Origin: Candidatus Zixiibacteriota bacterium
Lineage (GTDB): Bacteria; Zixibacteria; MSB-5A5; GN15; FEB-12
Direction: 5' to 3'
Length of the DNA: 64,000 nt
Assembly: GCA_017999435.1 (NCBI GenBank)
Contig: JAGNLV010000003.1
Coordinates: 372,001 to 436,000, forward strand
Position 1 is the first letter of the stretch. Every line of letters begins with the position of its first letter. The notes under the pieces were generated by a model that made no database searches, had not been told where the DNA came from, and worked only from the letters and a program-made list of their open reading frames with translations. Of the stretch, positions 8,748 to 20,312 are shown piece after piece. Both the position numbers and the translations under genes were made by a program.

Positions 8748-9092
8748 CTACGGAATCAGAACCCCGTCGATGATGTGGAGGACGCCGTTCCTCGCGGCGA
8801 CATCCACAAACAGCACGGTGGCGCTGTTGACCTTCACGTTGCCGTCCACGACCGCGATCTCGACCGTCCCGCCATTGGCCATCGCGGCCTCTGTCAGCGT
8901 GACGACGTCGGCGGCCTTGAACACTCCGGAAGTCACGTGGTACAGGAGGATGTTGCTCAACGTCGCCGGATCCTGAAGCAGAGCCTCAACCGTTCCCGCC
9001 GGAAGAGCCGCAAAAGTCTGTTCCGCCGGTCCAAACAGGGTGAACGGACCGTTGTACATCAGGGTGTTCTTGAGACCGGCCAGCCGGGACAC
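8748..9092 (-). CDS. Second fasciclin (FAS1) domain, in a shifted frame
   Basis: This frame encodes most of a FAS1 domain: [41 protein letters not shown] and the closing NGVLHIIDGVLIP. The formal start is a GTG in the middle of the fold. Homology-like sequence continues upstream to about 9180 ([16 protein letters not shown]), where it overlaps the end of the preceding lipoprotein gene in another frame. The simplest reading is that this is the C-terminal domain of one two-FAS1 protein separated from its N-terminal half by a single-base frameshift. It could also be a sequencing error. It has no ribosome site of its own. Confidence 0.75.
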   Translation of the reverse strand: MSRLAGLKNTLMYNGPFTLFGPAEQTFAALPAGTVEALLQDPATLSNILLYHVTSGVFKAADVVTLTEAAMANGGTVEIAVVDGNVKVNSATVLFVDVAARNGVLHIIDGVLIP

Positions 9093-9124: not shown

Positions 9125-9737
9125 TCAGCTTGCCGCTCCGGACCGCCTGGGCGATCCAGCCGGAACCGAGAGCGACGCCTTGGCCCCAAGCGGGTTCATC
9201 CGCGCCGAGGAGGAGGCGCCGGGAATGAGGACGGCATCGATCACATGGATCACGCCGTTGGTGGCCTTGATGTCGGTCGCCGTGACCACCGCGTTGTCGA
9301 TCCTGACCGTGCCGTCGCCGCCGAGAGTAATAGTGACGCTGGCGCCGTTGAGAGTCTCGGCGCTGGACAGCCTCACGACCTGATCCGCGGTGACCGCACC
9401 CGGCACCACGTGGTAGGTCAGGATAGCCGTCAAAGCATCCTTGTCGGCCAGCAATGCTTCGACCGTACCGGCCGGGAGCTTGGCAAAAGCATCGTCTGTG
9501 GGGGCAAACAGCGTGATCGGTCCCGCACCCTTGAGCGCATCGACGAGATCAGCGGCTTCAGCCGCGGCCAGAAGAGTCGTGAAATTGCCGGCCGCCGCGG
9601 CCGTCTCGACGATGTCCATGGTGGGATTCGGAGAACCGCTGTTCATCGGATTCTCGTCGTCGTTGCTGCAGCCAGTCATGCCGATCGCCAGGGCAGCCAC
9701 AAGGGCCGTCATCAGTGTAAACTTCCGGGTGAACATC
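9125..9737 (-). CDS. Fasciclin (FAS1) domain lipoprotein, N-terminal part
   Basis: Starts at ATG 9737 (GGAG 9 nt upstream) with a lipoprotein signal peptide: [19 protein letters not shown] then the lipobox GMTGC. One complete FAS1 domain follows (residues about 40-175): [39 protein letters not shown] and [17 protein letters not shown]1 domains mediate adhesion at the cell surface. The last 25 residues ([13 protein letters not shown] onward) are not FAS1-like and end where a second FAS1 domain is found in another frame, so the authentic protein probably had two tandem domains. Confidence 0.88.
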
Positions 9738-9813
9738 TTTTTGCTCCTTACTATACTATGAACGTTTTCTTTTGTTTTCGGTATTCGTCCGCATCTGTCG
9801 GTGTTGCGGCCGG

Positions 9814-10020
9814 CTAGGCCACCCACCGGCGCTGAATGGCCTTCCACTGAACCACTTGATAGAGAGCCCCCAAACCGACCACCATATACACCAGCCGGCT
9901 CAAGAGGGTGGCGTCGCCGAGCAGTGTGGCGACCAGGTCGAAATGCAGGAGGCCCACCAGACCCCAGTTGAGTCCCCCGACTACCATCAGGGCGACAGCG
10001 ATCACGTCGAATGATTTCAT
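9814..10020 (-). CDS. DUF378 small membrane protein
   Basis: A 68-aa protein with two membrane helices. The sequence [20 protein letters not shown] then [15 protein letters not shown] and [11 protein letters not shown] is the signature of DUF378 (YuzA-like) proteins. The ATG at 10020 has GGAG 9 nt upstream. Function is unknown. It lies 76 nt upstream of the fasciclin lipoprotein on the same strand and may share its transcript. Similar small DUF378 genes are often envelope-stress linked in other bacteria, but nothing here proves that. Confidence 0.9.
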
Positions 10021-10803
10021 TCCAGTACTCCTTTTTGCGTATTCTGTTCATTATTTGTCTAAGTTCTGACTTATGTAACTCCGAAGCTGGCGGATCGGTT
10101 CACGAAAAAGGAGAAAATGGCGAAAAATATCATAACCAATTGTAATCACACTAGTTATGTTATATTCTCATGGGCTATGTCAGGTTCACGATGATCGCCA
10201 AAGTGTCCATATTATTGAACAGATACGAGACGGGTGAATCACTCGACAGCACTGCCGGTGGCCTGCGGGGAGATCGCCAAAGGCAGCAGGGCCGAAAAAC
10301 GCCTGCGCGGAGGGCCACCGCCGCGTGCGCGATTCGATTGCCCCGCCGTTAGGCACGCCGTCCGTTACAGCCATCACCAGGTATCTGAGTAGTGTCCTCG
10401 TGTCAGATAAGACAAGAGCGGGGCGCGGAGTCGATCCGAGAGTACTGCGACAGCTCATCATGAGTTGTCTTACTCAGAATGTCAGGGCCGGCGATCGGAG
10501 AGTCACCCGGTCCCCGCCGACGCCCGGCGTCGGCGACGGAATGTCTATGCCCGATTAGGGAGTCGGGGGCTTGTCGCGCCCCGGTTGCAGGCCCTGCCGC
10601 GTGGCCCGGAGTCTTGTCGATGTGAGGGACACCGCAATTCTTGGCGAGACTATCGTGCGAGCTATCATCAGGGAGTGAGCATCGAGCTCCGCGGGAGGTT
10701 CGACCGACTTCAAAGTATCGTTTGAAACGAGGTCCGGGATATGAGTATCTTCCGGTATGCATGAACCTCACCGCAGTACCACCACTGTAAAGGAGGAGTA
10801 TCA
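10021..10803. other. Long intergenic region between divergent genes
   Basis: A 783-bp gap between the minus-strand DUF378 gene and the plus-strand gene at 10804. The part 10090-10200 is unusually AT-rich for this genome (TTATGTTATATT around 10153-10165) and is the likely promoter area. No coding sequence is convincing in the rest. Confidence 0.45.
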
Positions 10804-11942: not shown

Positions 11943-12512
11943 ATGAAGCGGTCGCACCTGTCCGATCAGCAGCTGTGGGAAAGCGTGCTCGTGGGCAAAG
12001 CCCGGGCCTGGGACGAGCTTGTCAGCCGGTACGGGCCGCTCGTCTACGCCGTGTGCCGCCAGGTGGGCATCAGCGAGTCCGATGCCGCCGATGTATTCCA
12101 ACACTCCTGGATTGCTCTCTACGAAAACCGCTTCCGTCTCGAGGACCCGACCCGCATCGCCTCGTGGCTGCTGACAACCGCCAAACGGGAGGCCCTGCGG
12201 TACCGGCAGAGACAGGCGCGGCTGCAGTCCGATGACTGCCTGGCCGAACGGGCCGACGAGCGACCGCTGCCGGACGAAGAGCTCCGGCGCCTCGAGCTCC
12301 AGGCCCGGCTGGAGCTCGCCCTGCGGTCGATCGACCGGCTGTGCCGCGATCTCTTGCGGGCGTTCTTCTTCGCCGGGGAGGATCAGTCGTACGAGCAAAT
12401 CGCCGCCGCCTTCCACATTGCCCCGAACTCGCTGGGCGCCAAGCGGCGCCGTTGTCTGGATAAGGTGCGCGCCGTGCTCATCCGTCTGGGATATCTGGAG
12501 GAACGGAAATGA
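11943..12512 (+). CDS. ECF-type RNA polymerase sigma factor
   Basis: A 189-aa sigma-70 family protein with only regions 2 and 4. Region 2 (residues about 18-85): AWDELVSRYGPLVYAVCRQ, SDAADVFQHSWIALYENR, TRIASWLLTTAKREALRY. Region 4 (about 125-185): LRSIDRLCRDLLRAFFFAG, SYEQIAAAFHIAPNSLGAKR, an HTH of the -35-binding type. ATG at 11943 is preceded by AGGGAG. It heads a run of four plus-strand genes (sigma, anti-sigma-like, TPR-CHAT, subtilase) with short gaps or overlaps, so it probably controls them. Expected target promoters are unknown. Confidence 0.93.
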   Translation: MKRSHLSDQQLWESVLVGKARAWDELVSRYGPLVYAVCRQVGISESDAADVFQHSWIALYENRFRLEDPTRIASWLLTTAKREALRYRQRQARLQSDDCLAERADERPLPDEELRRLELQARLELALRSIDRLCRDLLRAFFFAGEDQSYEQIAAAFHIAPNSLGAKRRRCLDKVRAVLIRLGYLEERK

Positions 12513-12549
12513 CCCAGACCGCCTCTGTTCTAGCGGAGAAGGAGTGATC

Positions 12550-13125
12550 ATGAGCCCAGAGAAGCACCTGACTCGGAAGCGGCTAATCGAAATTGCGCGC
12601 GCGGGCACTCCCCCGTCGGATTCTCACTTGGCCGCCTGCGACGTGTGCCGGGAGGCGTACGAGATGCTGTCCCGGTACTACTCCCTGATCGGCCGCCCTC
12701 CCCTTCCCGCACCACCGGCCGACTTCCTGAGGCGGGCCAGGTCAATCGCCCGGGAAGGTGCGCCGTCGGGTGCCCGACTGGTCGAGGTGGCCGCGCGTCT
12801 GGTATTCGATTCCTGGGCGGCGCCGGCGGCGGTCGGCGTGCGCGGACCGGCGGTCGAAAACGACCGCCGCCTGCACTTCGAAGCGGCTGGGGTCGCGGTA
12901 GAGCTGCGGGTTGAACAGAAAGAGACCGGGTGGTCGTGCATCGCGCAGTGCGTCGGCACCTCCGACCGATTTGTCATAGAGACCGACGCAGAAGTGGTCT
13001 ATCCGGATGACCTCGGGGTATGCCAGTGGCGGGCGCCGCGCCCGCCCGCCCGCCTTGTCGTGCACACCGCCGCAACCCGCGTCATTGTCTCCAGACTCCA
13101 ATGGAAGCGAACGAGACGGACATAG
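12550..13125 (+). CDS. Putative soluble zinc-finger anti-sigma factor
   Basis: A 191-aa protein, 37 nt after the sigma factor, start ATG 12550 with GGAGAAGGAG upstream. The N-terminal part shows SHLAACDVCREAYEML (His26, Cys30, Cys33), the H-x3-C-x2-C core of zinc-binding anti-sigma domains; the usual first Cys is not seen. There is no membrane segment. The C-terminal half (about 95-185) is a beta-rich region without a recognised family. By position and motif it should bind and hold the sigma factor in the cytosol. Its last 25 bases overlap the TPR-CHAT gene, implying coupled translation. Confidence 0.78.
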   Translation: MSPEKHLTRKRLIEIARAGTPPSDSHLAACDVCREAYEMLSRYYSLIGRPPLPAPPADFLRRARSIAREGAPSGARLVEVAARLVFDSWAAPAAVGVRGPAVENDRRLHFEAAGVAVELRVEQKETGWSCIAQCVGTSDRFVIETDAEVVYPDDLGVCQWRAPRPPARLVVHTAATRVIVSRLQWKRTRRT

Positions 13126-15863
13126 CGGCGCGGCGGTTCCTGCGCACGGGATCGACCGGGGTTCACGGCGAGAGCGCCGTGGCCGCCGCCTGTGAGAAGC
13201 TGATCCAGAAGGCGTTTCGCACGTCGATTCGCCGCGCGCTTGGACTGGCCGAGCGGTTTCACGCCCGGGCGCAGGCGCACGGCGGACGGGTACTGGGGCA
13301 GACGGCCTGGCGCTCGCTCGGACGGATGCACCACTTCTCCGGCCGGCACGCCGAGGCGCGGCACTGCTACCGGGCCGCGCGCACGCTCTGCGGCGACGAC
13401 TTGTTGATCCGCGGCCGCATCGACCGCACGCTCATCGACATCAACATGTACCTGGGCAATGACCGGGCGGCCGCCGCCGCCGGCCGCGCTGCCCTCCGCG
13501 CCTTCAGCGCCCTCGAGGCCGAGTCCGATCTGGCGCAGACGCGCGTCAACCTGGGCAATCTCTACCACCGCCGGGACAAACCGGTCGAGGCCGACCGGCT
13601 CTACCGGCAGGCCGCCTTGTTTTTCGCGCGAAGCGGCAACAAACTGGCCCTGGCCCGCACCAACTACAACCGGGCCAACGTACTCGTGCAGCTCTTCCAA
13701 ATGGACGAGGCCGAGAAGCTCTACCGGGACGCCCTCGCCGCGTACACCGAGTCGGGGTACGAACTCGATGCCTGCGATACCCGCTACGCTCTGGCCTGGC
13801 TGAATCTTCTGACCGGCCGTTTCCACCAGGCCCTGTCCGACCTCGCTGCATGCGAGGCAACGTATCGGACCGCGGGCGATCCCCGCGGCGTGGCGCTCTG
13901 CCTGCTTGACCGGGCGGAAGTGTTTCTCCAGTTGGGGCTCTATCGAGACGCCCTCGACCTGGCCGGCCGGGCGGGGAAACGGTTTCGGACGCTGAAGCTC
14001 GAATATGAGTCGGGGAAGGCGCACCTGTTCGCGGCCTATGCGCTGACCGGCCTCGGCCGAAAGGACCGGGCCCGGGCGGCGTGGGCCAGAGCCGAGCAGG
14101 GGTTTGCCGCCCTTCGGCATGCCGGGTACCTGGGAACCCTGCACCTGCTGCGGACGGATCTCGACCAGGGATCGCCGGGGACGCGGCAGACCGCGCTGCG
14201 CGCGGCGCGCCGATGCTTCGACCGGGCGGCGCTGTTCTTCTGGCAGGCGGTGTGCGATCTGAAGGCGATCGAACTGAGCGGACGCACGCCGGTCTACCTG
14301 GCGCGCCTTCGCCGCAATCCGGCCGCGTGGTGCGTGCCCCATCTCTACGCCGCCTGGCAGGTGGCGGAGGGGGACCTTCACCTCGTCTCCGGGCGGCGGG
14401 CGGCGGCGCTCACGGCCTGGCGGAAAGCGGCCGACCGCCTCGATCTGGTCCGATCGGCGCTGCCGCCGATGGAATTGCGCAACCAATATGCGCGCGCGGC
14501 GAAGTCGCCGCACGAGCGCCTGGTAGAATCGTATTTCAGCGACACCCCGCGCGAGGCGGCGGCCTGGTCGGAAAGGGCCAGGACGGCCGGAATCTGGAAC
14601 GCCGGCGCCCGACACCCCGCCCTGGCGGCCGCCCGCCGGCGGGTACAGCAGAGCCTCGGGGCGCTGTCGGCACGGGTGCAGACGCTGGCGCAGGAACTCA
14701 TGATCCCCGCGCATCGGTCCATAGGTGCCGGCGCCGCTCTCCCCTCGGCCGCCCGGCTGAACTTCCTCCGCCGCGAGATTCGCGAGTGCCTGCTGACGAT
14801 CGACCAGGCTCCAACGGCGGAGGCTCTCGACACCTCCCGATTGGGCGCCCGCATTGCGGCCGCGTCGCGGCAGGCGCCCATCGTGCAGTTTCAGGTAGCC
14901 GGCGGCGACATCCTCGCCTTTGTCCACGTCGGGGGAGAGGTCGCCACCCGCCGCTTTGTCGGCGGGCGGGAGCGCCTCGAGCGCCTGGCCGAGCGGTGGC
15001 GATTCTGCATCGAACGAAACGTCGTTCGCCACGCGCCCGCGCAGGAGAGCCGAACGCCGCTGGAGCAGGCGCTTTGGCGCGAGTTCGGCGCCTGGCTGTG
15101 GGCAGCGCTGGAGATCCCGGACGAGGCGGCACAGGTCATTATCGTTCCCGACGGTCCGCTGGCCAACCTCCCGTGGCAGGCGATCGAGTGCGACGGCGGG
15201 CTGTTGGGCGAACGCCACGCGCTTGTGCTGGCCCCCAGCCTCCGACACCATTGGTTCGCCCGCACCCGTCCGGGCGCCGGATTGCCGATACACCTCTTCC
15301 GCGGCGCCGGATCCGACCTGGCGTCCGCCCAGGGCGAACTTGCCCGCCTCGCGGCTCTTGCCCCCGGGCGCACGATCATGCATGCGCCCGCGACCCGGGC
15401 GTCGTGGCCGCAGGAAGGCGAATTCTTCATCTGGCATTACGCCGGGCACGCGCAACTGGTGGTCGAAAATCCCTTCTATTCCTACCTGCGGCTGGAGGAC
15501 GGTCCGCTCTTTGCCGCCGATTTTCAGATCCGCTCGTGCCGCGTGGAGTTGGCGACGCTCGCGGCCTGCCGCTCGGGCGAGGAGGTCACGCTGCCCGGCG
15601 AAGAATCCACGGGCTTCGTGCGGGCACTCCTGGAGATGGGTGCGCGCAACGTCCTTGCCGGGCGGTGGCCCGTTCTGGATCAGTCGACCGCCCTGTACAT
15701 GGAGCACTTTTATGCCGAACTACTGAGCAGCAAATCGCTGGTTCAGGCGATGCACAATGCCGAGCGCCGGACGCGGCTTAAATACCCGTCCGCCTATCAC
15801 TGGGCCGCCTTCGGCCTGCACGGCGCCGGCTTTCTCGGAGAGGACCATGCGAAGACTCCTTAA
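13101..15863 (+). CDS. TPR-CHAT protease (caspase-HetF associated with TPRs)
   Basis: A 920-aa cytosolic protein. Residues about 60-400 are helical tetratricopeptide repeats (for example LAQTRVNLGNLYHRRDKPVE, ALARTNYNRANVLVQLFQMD). The C-terminal third is a CHAT peptidase domain of clan CD with both catalytic residues: His783 in WHYAGHAQ and Cys823 in LATLAACRSGEE; ARNVLAGRWPVLDQST and AYHWAAFGLHG complete the fold. CHAT proteases are known as activated cysteine proteases that cut specific partners (e.g. gasdermins, or Csx30 in type III-E CRISPR). ATG 13101 is chosen over 13020, which would put 27 Arg/Pro-rich residues in front. It overlaps genes on both sides, so the four genes are one transcript. 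Confidence 0.93.
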   Translation: MEANETDIAARRFLRTGSTGVHGESAVAAACEKLIQKAFRTSIRRALGLAERFHARAQAHGGRVLGQTAWRSLGRMHHFSGRHAEARHCYRAARTLCGDDLLIRGRIDRTLIDINMYLGNDRAAAAAGRAALRAFSALEAESDLAQTRVNLGNLYHRRDKPVEADRLYRQAALFFARSGNKLALARTNYNRANVLVQLFQMDEAEKLYRDALAAYTESGYELDACDTRYALAWLNLLTGRFHQALSDLAACEATYRTAGDPRGVALCLLDRAEVFLQLGLYRDALDLAGRAGKRFRTLKLEYESGKAHLFAAYALTGLGRKDRARAAWARAEQGFAALRHAGYLGTLHLLRTDLDQGSPGTRQTALRAARRCFDRAALFFWQAVCDLKAIELSGRTPVYLARLRRNPAAWCVPHLYAAWQVAEGDLHLVSGRRAAALTAWRKAADRLDLVRSALPPMELRNQYARAAKSPHERLVESYFSDTPREAAAWSERARTAGIWNAGARHPALAAARRRVQQSLGALSARVQTLAQELMIPAHRSIGAGAALPSAARLNFLRREIRECLLTIDQAPTAEALDTSRLGARIAAASRQAPIVQFQVAGGDILAFVHVGGEVATRRFVGGRERLERLAERWRFCIERNVVRHAPAQESRTPLEQALWREFGAWLWAALEIPDEAAQVIIVPDGPLANLPWQAIECDGGLLGERHALVLAPSLRHHWFARTRPGAGLPIHLFRGAGSDLASAQGELARLAALAPGRTIMHAPATRASWPQEGEFFIWHYAGHAQLVVENPFYSYLRLEDGPLFAADFQIRSCRVELATLAACRSGEEVTLPGEESTGFVRALLEMGARNVLAGRWPVLDQSTALYMEHFYAELLSSKSLVQAMHNAERRTRLKYPSAYHWAAFGLHGAGFLGEDHAKTP

Positions 15864-17253
15864 GATCCTGTCCCTGATCGGGATCGTGCTGTTGACCGGC
15901 CCGAGGCCGGCCATGATCCGGGCCGACGCGGAGCGGCCGAACCACACGCCCGGCGATGTTGTCTGCCGTGTCCTCCCCGGTTCGACAATCGAGGAGATCA
16001 ACCAGACCTACGGTACCGCCGTCAAGGGACACCTCCCGGTCACCGACGTGTACCTCCTGATGATCCCTCAGGGCCAGAACCCCGACACGATTGCGGCCCG
16101 GATCGACGCTGATGCGCGGGTGGACTTCTGCCGCCCCAACTACTATCTCGCGGCGCCGGAGGGGTTTCAGCGGAGTTCACCGTTCGTCGATGCCGAGCTG
16201 ATCGGTACTTTTGAAGACCAGCCGGCGGCTGTGACGCTCGATCTGGCCACCGCCGCCCTGGTGTCGACGGGGGCCGGCGCACGCATTGCGCTGATCGACG
16301 GCGGCGTCGCCGCGAACCACCCGGTATTCGCCTCGTTCCCCGGCGACCTGGTCAGTCGCTGGGATTACCTGGAGGAGGATTCCGTGGCGCAGGCCGACAC
16401 GGCCGGTTCCTGCGCCGCTCACGGCACGTTTGTGGCCGCCGTTCTCCAATTGGTCGCACCCGGCGCCGATGTGTACGTCTACAAAGTTCTCGATACGGCC
16501 GGCCAGGGCAACGCCTACGCCATCGCAGCCGCCATCCTCCAGGCGATCGACGACGGCTGCGACGTGATCAACCTGAGCCTGGGCATGACCCGGGTCGATG
16601 AGAGTCTCGATGACGCACTGCGCACGGCCCGGCAGTCCGGCGTGAGCGTCGTGGCGTCCGCCGGCAACGATTCCACCAATCTCGCCAGCCTCTTCCCCTT
16701 TCCGGCCTCGCGCTCCAACGTCATTGCCGTTGCCGCGCTGGACTCGGTCAACGTGAAGGCGGATTTCTCCAACTACGGGGTGCGCATCGACGTGTGCTGC
16801 CCCGGTACGCGGGTCTATTCGGCCTACGCCGACACCTTGTTCGCCTGGTGGGACGGGACGAGCTTTGCCGCGCCCATGGCGGCGGGCGTGATCGCCTGCC
16901 TGCGCAGCCGGCACCCCGGTCTGACACCCGAGCGGATCGACACGATCCTGGCGCGGTCATCCCACAACGTCGATTCGCTCAACCCGGGTCTGGAAGCGCA
17001 GTTGGGAGCCGGGCTGATTGACCCGCCGGCGGCGCTGGCGCTGGCCGGGCAGATCACCCGCGGCGATGTCACGCTCGACGGCAGGGTCGACATCAACGAC
17101 CTCACCGCGCTCGTGAATTACCTGTTCCGCGGGGCCACACTGGACGTGCTCGCCGACGCCGACGTCTCCTGCGACAGCGCCGTCAACATCGCCGATCTGA
17201 CTCTGCTCGTCAAATACCTCTTCCTCGGCGCCGCCATGCCCTGCGGCGCGTGA
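15847..17253 (+). CDS. Exported subtilisin-like (S8) serine protease with dockerin repeats
   Basis: A 468-aa protein; start ATG 15847 has GAGAGG upstream and lies 17 nt inside the CHAT gene. Signal peptide (LLKILSLIGIVLLTGPRPA), short propeptide-like region, then the S8 catalytic domain with Asp151 (IALIDGGVAANHPV), His192 (AAHGTFVAAV) and Ser339 (DGTSFAAPMAAG), all intact. It ends in two type-I dockerin repeats (GDVTLDGRVDINDLTALVNY and DSAVNIADLTLLVKYLF). Because it is exported while the CHAT protein is cytosolic, a direct cleavage cascade would need membrane passage or cell lysis. Its place in a sigma-factor operon suggests regulated secretion. Confidence 0.93.
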   Translation: MRRLLKILSLIGIVLLTGPRPAMIRADAERPNHTPGDVVCRVLPGSTIEEINQTYGTAVKGHLPVTDVYLLMIPQGQNPDTIAARIDADARVDFCRPNYYLAAPEGFQRSSPFVDAELIGTFEDQPAAVTLDLATAALVSTGAGARIALIDGGVAANHPVFASFPGDLVSRWDYLEEDSVAQADTAGSCAAHGTFVAAVLQLVAPGADVYVYKVLDTAGQGNAYAIAAAILQAIDDGCDVINLSLGMTRVDESLDDALRTARQSGVSVVASAGNDSTNLASLFPFPASRSNVIAVAALDSVNVKADFSNYGVRIDVCCPGTRVYSAYADTLFAWWDGTSFAAPMAAGVIACLRSRHPGLTPERIDTILARSSHNVDSLNPGLEAQLGAGLIDPPAALALAGQITRGDVTLDGRVDINDLTALVNYLFRGATLDVLADADVSCDSAVNIADLTLLVKYLFLGAAMPCGA

Positions 17254-17450: not shown

Positions 17451-18653
17451 ATGAACGGACGGACGAAGTGGCTCTCGCTGATGGGAGCGGGCCTGCTGTT
17501 GACGGCGATGATCGGCTGCAGCGAATCGCCCACGGCACCGCAGACCGGAGGGAGCGACGGCACGGCAGTCGAATCGAAGGCGCCCGCCGCCGACTCGCTG
17601 CAGCTCCGCGCCCGCGTACAAACCGTCGACCAGAACCGCCTCAGACTCACCCTGGAAGGGGAAACCGACACGGTGGCGACCCTGCAGAACTGCCAGATTG
17701 TCCGGTACAGCGGCTTCTCGGAAGCTCCCGTCCCCTTCACGGAAATCCGGGTGAACGACTCGGTCGAAGTGGCCGGTCACCGCTACCAGAACGCCTGCGT
17801 GAACGCCTACCGGATCGGGATCTGTGAGGAACCGGGAGCGGTGCGGTATGCGGCGCGCGTCGAGACGGTCAACCGGGACCGCCGCATGCTGACTTTCGCC
17901 GGGAAACCGGATTCTGTCATCGCCAACCTGAACTGCGCGGTAGTCCGCCTCAACGGTAACAGCGAGGCGCCCGTCCCGTTCGACGAGATCAATCCGGGCG
18001 ATTCCGTGCAGCTCTATGGCGAGCGCAACCAGAACCGCTATGTCTACGCCCGCCACCTGGGCGTGTGCAGCCCCGGCGGAGGCGGCTATGATGTCGCCGT
18101 GCGGGACACGATCACCTCAATCGACTACGCCGCCGGCACCTTCACGATCGCCGGCCGCACCGAACTCATCACCGTGGACTCCGAGACCGTCATATGGACC
18201 AACCTCCGGATCCTCCACGAACAGCCGGATGAAAACGGGCGCGACCGCATGGGTATGGCGCTGTCGGACGGCGGCAATTTCTATCGCTCCGACCACGACT
18301 CAATTCTGGCCTTCACCGACGTCGCGGTCGGCGACGTGATAGAATTGCGGGCCGACATCGTCAACGAAACCACCCTCCGTGCGGCGGTGATCAAACTGAC
18401 GCCCGAGTGTCTGAGCCGCTGCCTCGCCTTCAGCGACCGCCTCGCGACGATCGATGTCGCCGCTCGGCTCGTCACCTTCGAAAACGAGACGCGGATCTGC
18501 TGGGTCTGCCCGGGGGCGAAATTGCGGGATCGTGACGGAGCGGAGATCACCCTCGCCGATTTCGCGGTCGGCGATTTCGTTGCCGTCAAGGGCTATCCCC
18601 TGGCGGGCGATACGTTGAAGATCTCCCAGATGGCGCTGACGGCAGAACCGTAG
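17451..18653 (+). CDS. Repeat lipoprotein with DUF5666-like beta domains
   Basis: A 400-aa lipoprotein: MNGRTKWLSLMGAGLLLTAM, lipobox MIGC at Cys23. The mature part is built from about four repeats of some 85 residues, each beginning with a 'RVQTVDQNRLRLTLEG' or 'RVETVNRDRRMLTFAG' strand pair and containing 'EAPVPFTEIRVNDSVEV'-like segments. This matches the DUF5666 type of small beta-barrel. Cysteines recur at the same place in the first two repeats (LQNCQIVRY, LNCAVVRL). AAGGAGG precedes the ATG. It follows the subtilase by 197 nt and is ended by a hairpin at 18790. Function unknown. Confidence 0.85.
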   Translation: MNGRTKWLSLMGAGLLLTAMIGCSESPTAPQTGGSDGTAVESKAPAADSLQLRARVQTVDQNRLRLTLEGETDTVATLQNCQIVRYSGFSEAPVPFTEIRVNDSVEVAGHRYQNACVNAYRIGICEEPGAVRYAARVETVNRDRRMLTFAGKPDSVIANLNCAVVRLNGNSEAPVPFDEINPGDSVQLYGERNQNRYVYARHLGVCSPGGGGYDVAVRDTITSIDYAAGTFTIAGRTELITVDSETVIWTNLRILHEQPDENGRDRMGMALSDGGNFYRSDHDSILAFTDVAVGDVIELRADIVNETTLRAAVIKLTPECLSRCLAFSDRLATIDVAARLVTFENETRICWVCPGAKLRDRDGAEITLADFAVGDFVAVKGYPLAGDTLKISQMALTAEP

Positions 18654-19430: not shown

Positions 19431-20312
19431 ATGAAAAGGCTATTACTGGTTCTGAGTCTGTTGGGCATGATGACGGCGTTCTTTGGTTGCTCGAACGACC
19501 CGCAGACGACCGGTCCCGCTGTCGGCCAGGACACCCCCGGTACCCTGGTTCAGCGCCCCGAGTTCATCGATAACCGCCCGGATGCGGTGAAAGCTGCATT
19601 CACCAAGCTGGGCACACCCATTGAGTCGTCTGACCGGGTGGTCGCCGACGGCTTTTCCGCCGCCGATCCCAACCCGACCCCGGCTCACAAGTATGCGTAT
19701 GTCATCGGGATCTCCGATTACGACGGCACGGCCAATGATCTGAATTTCTGCGATGACGATGCGCGCGATGTCATAGCGTTCCTGAACAGCCAGGGTTTCA
19801 CCGTGCGCAGCGACATTGACTACAGCGCCTCGGCGGCCAACATCCAGGCGGGCCTGATCTGGTTGCGCGACGCGGCGGTTCCCGGCGACGAGGTGGCCTT
19901 CTTCTATTCCGGCCACGGCACCAAAGTGCGCCCGTCGGGTGGTTCGAGCATTATCTCGCGGGACCTGTACTACCTGACCCACGCATACGTCATGGGCTAC
20001 CTCAACGCGGCCAACTGCACGAAGAAGACGATCAATCTCGATGCCTGTGTCATCGGCGACTTCCATGCCGACTGCAAAACCGGCACCGTGCTCTCCACCG
20101 CCTCCGTATCCAAATACTCCTACGACGCCCCCGATCTGCAGAATGGCGCCTGGACCTATTTCTTCCTGGACGGCGCCATCAATCAGGGGTTGGCGTACAA
20201 CGAAGCGATCTCTACGTATGCCGAAGTGAACATGAAAGCCTGGGCGACCGCGAACAGACTCAAAGTCGATCCCAAACACACCGACATGTACACCGGCGAT
20301 CTGGATATCTGA
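19431..20312 (+). CDS. Caspase-like (C14) lipoprotein
   Basis: A 293-aa protein; ATG 19431 has AAGGAGAG 6-8 nt upstream. A lipoprotein signal (LLLVLSLLGMMTAFFGC, lipobox Cys19) is followed by a linker and a caspase p20-type domain from about residue 92: AYVIGISDYDGTANDLNFCD, DARDVIAFLNSQGF, VAFFYSGHGTK with His162, and TINLDACVIGDF with Cys206. Both residues of the clan-CD catalytic dyad are present. The C-terminal QNGAWTYFFLDG motif fits bacterial metacaspase-like proteins. Lipid anchoring places it in the envelope, not the cytosol. It is the second clan-CD protease within 7 kb. Confidence 0.9.
   Translation: MKRLLLVLSLLGMMTAFFGCSNDPQTTGPAVGQDTPGTLVQRPEFIDNRPDAVKAAFTKLGTPIESSDRVVADGFSAADPNPTPAHKYAYVIGISDYDGTANDLNFCDDDARDVIAFLNSQGFTVRSDIDYSASAANIQAGLIWLRDAAVPGDEVAFFYSGHGTKVRPSGGSSIISRDLYYLTHAYVMGYLNAANCTKKTINLDACVIGDFHADCKTGTVLSTASVSKYSYDAPDLQNGAWTYFFLDGAINQGLAYNEAISTYAEVNMKAWATANRLKVDPKHTDMYTGDLDI

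Follow-up and report, generated by a model that had tools for sequence, protein, structure and literature searches.

A conserved sigma factor, anti-sigma-like protein, TPR-CHAT protease, and subtilase module in Zixibacteria as a candidate protease-controlled switch

A compact operon encoding an ECF-type sigma factor, an anti-sigma-like protein, a TPR-CHAT cysteine protease, and an S8 subtilase recurs across the Zixibacteria, a little-known bacterial phylum. As judged by comparison of related loci, the four genes are one inherited unit, far beyond what chance would produce. Conservation of this module as a unit in dozens of species suggests that an internal protease probably controls the sigma switch, in a manner resembling Craspase. 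The more specific proposal, that sigma release depends on CHAT through cleavage of the anti-sigma-like protein, with the subtilase as the fixed output, is given roughly an even chance of being correct. The operon lies within a 64,000-nucleotide stretch of DNA, referred to here as the window, whose host is itself a member of the Zixibacteria.

Operon organization and encoded proteins

All four genes are on the plus strand: the sigma factor (11943..12512; 189 aa; regions 2 and 4), the two-domain, predicted soluble anti-sigma-like protein (12550..13125; 191 aa), the TPR-CHAT protease (13101..15863; 920 aa; His783/Cys823), and the predicted exported S8 subtilase (15847..17253; 468 aa; Asp151/His192/Ser339). 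With anti-sigma starting at 12550 and S8 at 15847, a 37-nt gap separates the first two genes, followed by overlaps of 25 nt (anti-sigma/CHAT) and 17 nt (CHAT/S8). The coordinates, gap, and overlaps given in an earlier note, made from the sequence alone, matched exactly on re-checking, and its domain calls for the sigma factor, CHAT, and S8 proteins were borne out by Pfam/NCBIfam matches. CHAT residues His783 and Cys823 were confirmed by residue position, and the S8 residues Asp151, His192, and Ser339 follow from motif positions.

The sigma factor matches Pfam Sigma70_r2 (1.9e-13) and the NCBIfam sigma70-ECF model (2.7e-21, residues 22-177), and its family profile matches SigH/SigW/RpoE structures. 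The third protein contains a Pfam CHAT domain (6.8e-33) together with TPRs, and its structure model (pLDDT 82.5) places this domain at the C-terminus of a long TPR superhelix. A Foldseek search with the model returned separase as the top match (4.7e-13), with Craspase Csx29 also matched (7.5e-11); the global TM-scores are modest, such that the likeness is at the fold level, and the sequence comparison with Csx29 gave E 0.21. The models of both the anti-sigma and CHAT proteins were built from shallow alignments (24 and 34 sequences, respectively).

The subtilase matches Peptidase_S8 (2.7e-41) and carries a signal peptide, a weak match to a fervidolysin-type propeptide, and a C-terminal dockerin-like repeat (Dockerin_1, 1.6e-7); a hydrophobic N-terminus is present in most of its homologues. 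A role for the dockerin as a cellulosome anchor was rejected, given 60 dockerin matches versus one sub-threshold cohesin in the host genome; dockerin repeats may be a surface-sorting tag in this phylum. Filing the locus as a defence system was likewise discarded, as PADLOC returned only a generic subtilase, a weak IetS, and a generic caspase model. A probable lipoprotein of caspase fold (Peptidase_C14), carrying SGHG and DACVIG motifs, is encoded two genes 3' of S8 at 19431-20312 (+); this gene is not conserved beside related modules. On the 5' side of the operon, two adjacent fasciclin-domain proteins are encoded on the minus strand (8748-9092 and 9125-10051).

A two-domain anti-sigma-like protein

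The second gene product consists of a helical N-terminal domain with an H26-x3-C30-x2-C33 motif, a variable linker (about residues 61-79), and a C-terminal domain (about residues 80-185) that is confidently modelled as a beta-sandwich. The overall model has a pLDDT of 88 and a pTM of 0.60, and the latter value, together with the weaker linker, fits two domains that are only loosely tethered to each other. The anti-sigma-like assignment made in the earlier note stands as far as the motif is concerned; a family match for the window protein itself was not obtained with any Pfam or NCBIfam model. Its homologues matched zf-HC2 (5.2e-7) and an NCBIfam anti-sigma model (9.7e-5), an RsrA-like NCBIfam match was obtained at 0.0025, and the C-terminus matched CarboxypepD_reg in 6 of 26 homologues (best, 1.8e-5). 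A Foldseek search with the model gave no significant PDB match.

None of 57 anti-sigma homologues contains a transmembrane-like segment (top mean 19-residue hydropathy, 1.52), and the protein is predicted to be soluble and cytoplasmic. Given that the S8 protease is predicted to be exported, CHAT would be the only co-encoded protease able to reach it. The C-terminal domain, with its FDS...GVR...RRL signature, is the best conserved part of the protein, while the linker is among the least conserved. Taken together, these features are evidence that the carboxypeptidase-like gene encodes a two-domain anti-sigma-like protein, an assignment offered here as new.

Conservation across Zixibacteria

To assess conservation, 80 related loci were annotated with profiles for all four families, and an anti-sigma gene was counted when its score was at least 70 bits (n = 75, phylum-wide). 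The full order sigma/anti-sigma/CHAT/S8 is present in 57 of these 75 loci, and a further 16 are interrupted by contig ends only, leaving the order uncontradicted. The two exceptions are a locus with a divergent CHAT gene (L036) and one without S8 (L063). Across the 75 homologues, sigma is located 5' and CHAT 3' of the anti-sigma gene wherever the contig permits, with L036 as the sole exception, and S8 is next in line in all but one locus once contig ends are allowed for. The CHAT His and Cys are intact in every readable homologue, suggesting that catalysis is under selection; the S8 Asp, His, and Ser are also intact wherever readable. In nearly all loci the anti-sigma and CHAT reading frames overlap, most commonly by 4 nt (ATGA), which suggests that the two proteins are stoichiometric partners.

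Pairwise distances of the four proteins are correlated (r 0.86-0.90 over 54 loci), and none of the Mantel permutations of these distances exceeded 0.29. The loci were divided into three clades (Ia, Ib, and II) according to the CHAT motif and the size of S8, and these clades can co-occur within single genomes. All four protein trees recover clade II, three recover Ib, and two recover Ia, the remaining trees coming close. The conserved order and co-varying distances in three clades point to inheritance as a unit. Conserved synteny had been named in advance in the earlier note as a check on its interpretation, and the 57 complete loci and co-varying distances strongly uphold that part of it. The H-x3-C-x2-C motif is distributed unevenly, being kept in 16/18 clade Ia proteins, 4/9 of Ib, and 0/27 of II.

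A CHAT search of 61 genomes recovered full-length orthologues at 38-47% identity, and anti-sigma matches were found in 59 of 132 genomes of the phylum. A CHAT-profile scan of 84,980 species genomes, which reaches only close relatives of this CHAT, yielded 26 loci, essentially all in Zixibacteria. An apparent occurrence outside the phylum, in a record titled Calditrichaeota, was discounted, as it has the same matches at the same coordinates as a Zixibacteria genome (G084). CHAT genes on Streptomyces, Azospirillum, and Caballeronia plasmids and on a Nonomuraea replicon were also set aside, being without the other three genes. By the data-set taxonomy, the Calditrichaeota record (CLD4; L099) and another public record, titled Ignavibacterium BE2012_50_10 (L090), both appear to be Zixibacteria.

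In clade Ia, a DUF5666 gene often directly follows S8, and homologues occur in 12 related loci. In the window this gene (17451..18653, +; DUF5666, 1.4e-8) encodes a probable lipoprotein, possibly a fifth member of the module or a gene of its regulon; none of the other flanking genes tested is common to related loci.

The earlier note had also proposed that the released sigma factor induces its own operon in a feedback loop. When the regions upstream of 72 sigma genes were searched for two-block motifs, no shared promoter motif stood clearly above Markov-resampled controls; candidate motifs scored modestly above the controls, were clade-dependent and unlike an ECF site, and were dropped. This negative outcome leaves autoinduction unsupported rather than refuted.

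Copies of the module in the host genome

The host genome encodes 17 sigma region-2, 15 S8, and 4 CHAT genes, and three of the four CHAT genes adjoin both sigma and S8. These represent three copies of the module: the one in the window, one on contig 1 (L035) whose S8 protein is 1,373 aa long with a FlgD/T9SS-like tail, and L036 on contig 2, where CHAT is on the strand opposite to S8, anti-sigma, and sigma. The fourth CHAT gene (L037, on contig 1) follows genes for an ECF-like sigma factor and a zf-HC2 anti-sigma that appears to have a transmembrane segment; this different set is at 4126-8381 of L037, and no S8 match was found alongside. In 14 of 40 other CHAT regions of the phylum, an approximate count based on iterated profiles, CHAT likewise follows genes for an ECF sigma factor and an anti-sigma-like protein, suggesting that sigma control may be a common task of TPR-CHAT proteins in this phylum.

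Proposed mechanism and alternatives

From these features we infer two contacts, a cleavage, a signal, and a set of targets. At rest, the N-terminal helices of the soluble anti-sigma would grip the ECF sigma factor, with TPR-CHAT bound to the C-terminal beta-sandwich of the anti-sigma. The TPR superhelix would detect a cytoplasmic signal, and CHAT, through its His783/Cys823 dyad, would then cleave the anti-sigma, the simplest site being its variable interdomain linker. The sigma factor would thereby be freed and would raise expression of its targets; the exported subtilase is probably among them, and the DUF5666 lipoprotein perhaps so. Counted in favour of this course of events were the gene order, the distance correlation, the CHAT dyad, the frame overlap, the predicted compartments, and the contrast between C-domain and linker, as well as the separase/Csx29 fold match, the Csx29-Csx30 precedent, and the presence of sigma and anti-sigma genes at other CHATs. 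Counted against it were the missing family match of the window anti-sigma, the zinc motif score of 0/27 in clade II, the lack of a promoter motif, the divergent CHAT in the contig 2 copy, and the one related locus without S8. In addition, the Craspase sigma factor is still on the N-terminal fragment after the cut in vitro (PMC9729208), and thus a single cut may be insufficient here.

Separase, the closest solved structure to CHAT, is restrained by securin (PMC9729208), and a comparable arrangement would have the anti-sigma C-domain hold CHAT inactive while the N-domain holds sigma, with a signal acting on the anti-sigma freeing both. CHAT would then be an output and not the trigger, making it the inner and the subtilase the outer effector protease. 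The overlapping anti-sigma/CHAT frames would suit such a stored complex, as would a C-domain more conserved than any other part of the anti-sigma. However, the known sigma-adjacent TPR-CHAT cleaves the sigma inhibitor itself (PMC10028731), and among the genes tested at the loci there is no conserved gene for another intracellular target; this arrangement is considered unlikely.

The anti-sigma might also be the sensor itself, for zinc or redox state or for a ligand bound by the beta-sandwich, releasing sigma by a change of shape and leaving CHAT and S8 as ordinary regulated products. The motif retained in most clade Ia proteins resembles that of redox-type soluble anti-sigmas, and the RsrA-like match points in the same direction. 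However, the motif is gone from 27/27 clade II and 5/9 Ib proteins with the module still intact, such that the clades cannot have zinc sensing as their common mechanism, and this explanation is regarded as quite improbable. A last alternative makes the exported subtilase the initiator, an extracellular cut producing a peptide or stress that is detected by TPR-CHAT or the anti-sigma. The S8 triad and gene position are conserved as well as the cytoplasmic parts, yet the anti-sigma is predicted not to be membrane-bound and, among the genes tested, none for a transporter or receptor is kept alongside the module; a start from outside the cell is considered very unlikely.

Comparison with known systems

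The gene context closely resembles that reported for group ECF54 (Casas-Pastor 2021 and Huang 2015, as cited in PMC8999054), a group absent from the earlier note. In that account, proteins with subtilase, CHAT, and carboxypeptidase domains are encoded nearby, proteolytic control is proposed with an anti-sigma factor described as lacking, and the model member comes from the actinobacterium Geodermatophilus. The resemblance is one of described gene context and lies in the CHAT and S8 genes at nearly all loci and in the CarboxypepD_reg matches of the anti-sigma homologues; so close a resemblance to the reported context means that the context as such is not new. The difference is that the second gene here has an anti-sigma-like N-terminus on a carboxypeptidase-like protein, and for the puzzle of proteolytic control without an anti-sigma, as ECF54 is presented in that source, a possible answer is that the anti-sigma role falls to the carboxypeptidase-like neighbour. 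What is new is that the module is present across Zixibacteria, that three clades inherit it as a unit, and that there is evidence for the carboxypeptidase-like gene as a two-domain anti-sigma.

Soluble zinc anti-sigmas of the RsrA and ChrR type share the helical N-domain with H-x3-C-x2-C found in clade Ia and in some Ib members, whereas clade II is without the motif and the C-terminal beta-sandwich with the FDS...GVR signature sets the present family apart. Membrane anti-sigmas under regulated intramembrane proteolysis differ in having the transmembrane segment not found in the 57 homologues. Eukaryotic separase, the best fold match, likewise combines a long helical repeat arm with a caspase-like domain, but the protein described here is bacterial and the substrate and inhibitor differ. 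A survey of conflict systems (Kaur 2020; PMC7159879) makes no mention of CHAT or sigma factors.

In Craspase, the TPR-CHAT protease Csx29 cleaves Csx30, which inhibits the ECF factor CASP-sigma (PMC10028731, PMC9729208). Both systems encode together a TPR-CHAT protein of similar fold with a His/Cys dyad, a sigma inhibitor (putative in the present case), and an ECF sigma factor. In contrast to Craspase, the host genome contains no RAMP match to Cas7-11/gRAMP (four control genomes matched), no CRISPR-like array is located near the operon, and the inhibitor is not detectably related to Csx30, which gave no profile match up to E 10 and was absent among the 50 Foldseek matches listed; the subtilase is an addition here. 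Tentatively, and as a rather unlikely possibility, sigma/anti-sigma/TPR-CHAT could be a portable protease-gated switch older than and independent of CRISPR. The Zixibacteria version would then correspond to the Craspase output arm without CRISPR, and the guide-RNA effector could be a later add-on in type III-E. The module poses a testable question about the origin of the Craspase output arm and provides a clean CRISPR-free gene set for testing whether TPR-CHAT control of sigma factors via inhibitor cleavage is common.
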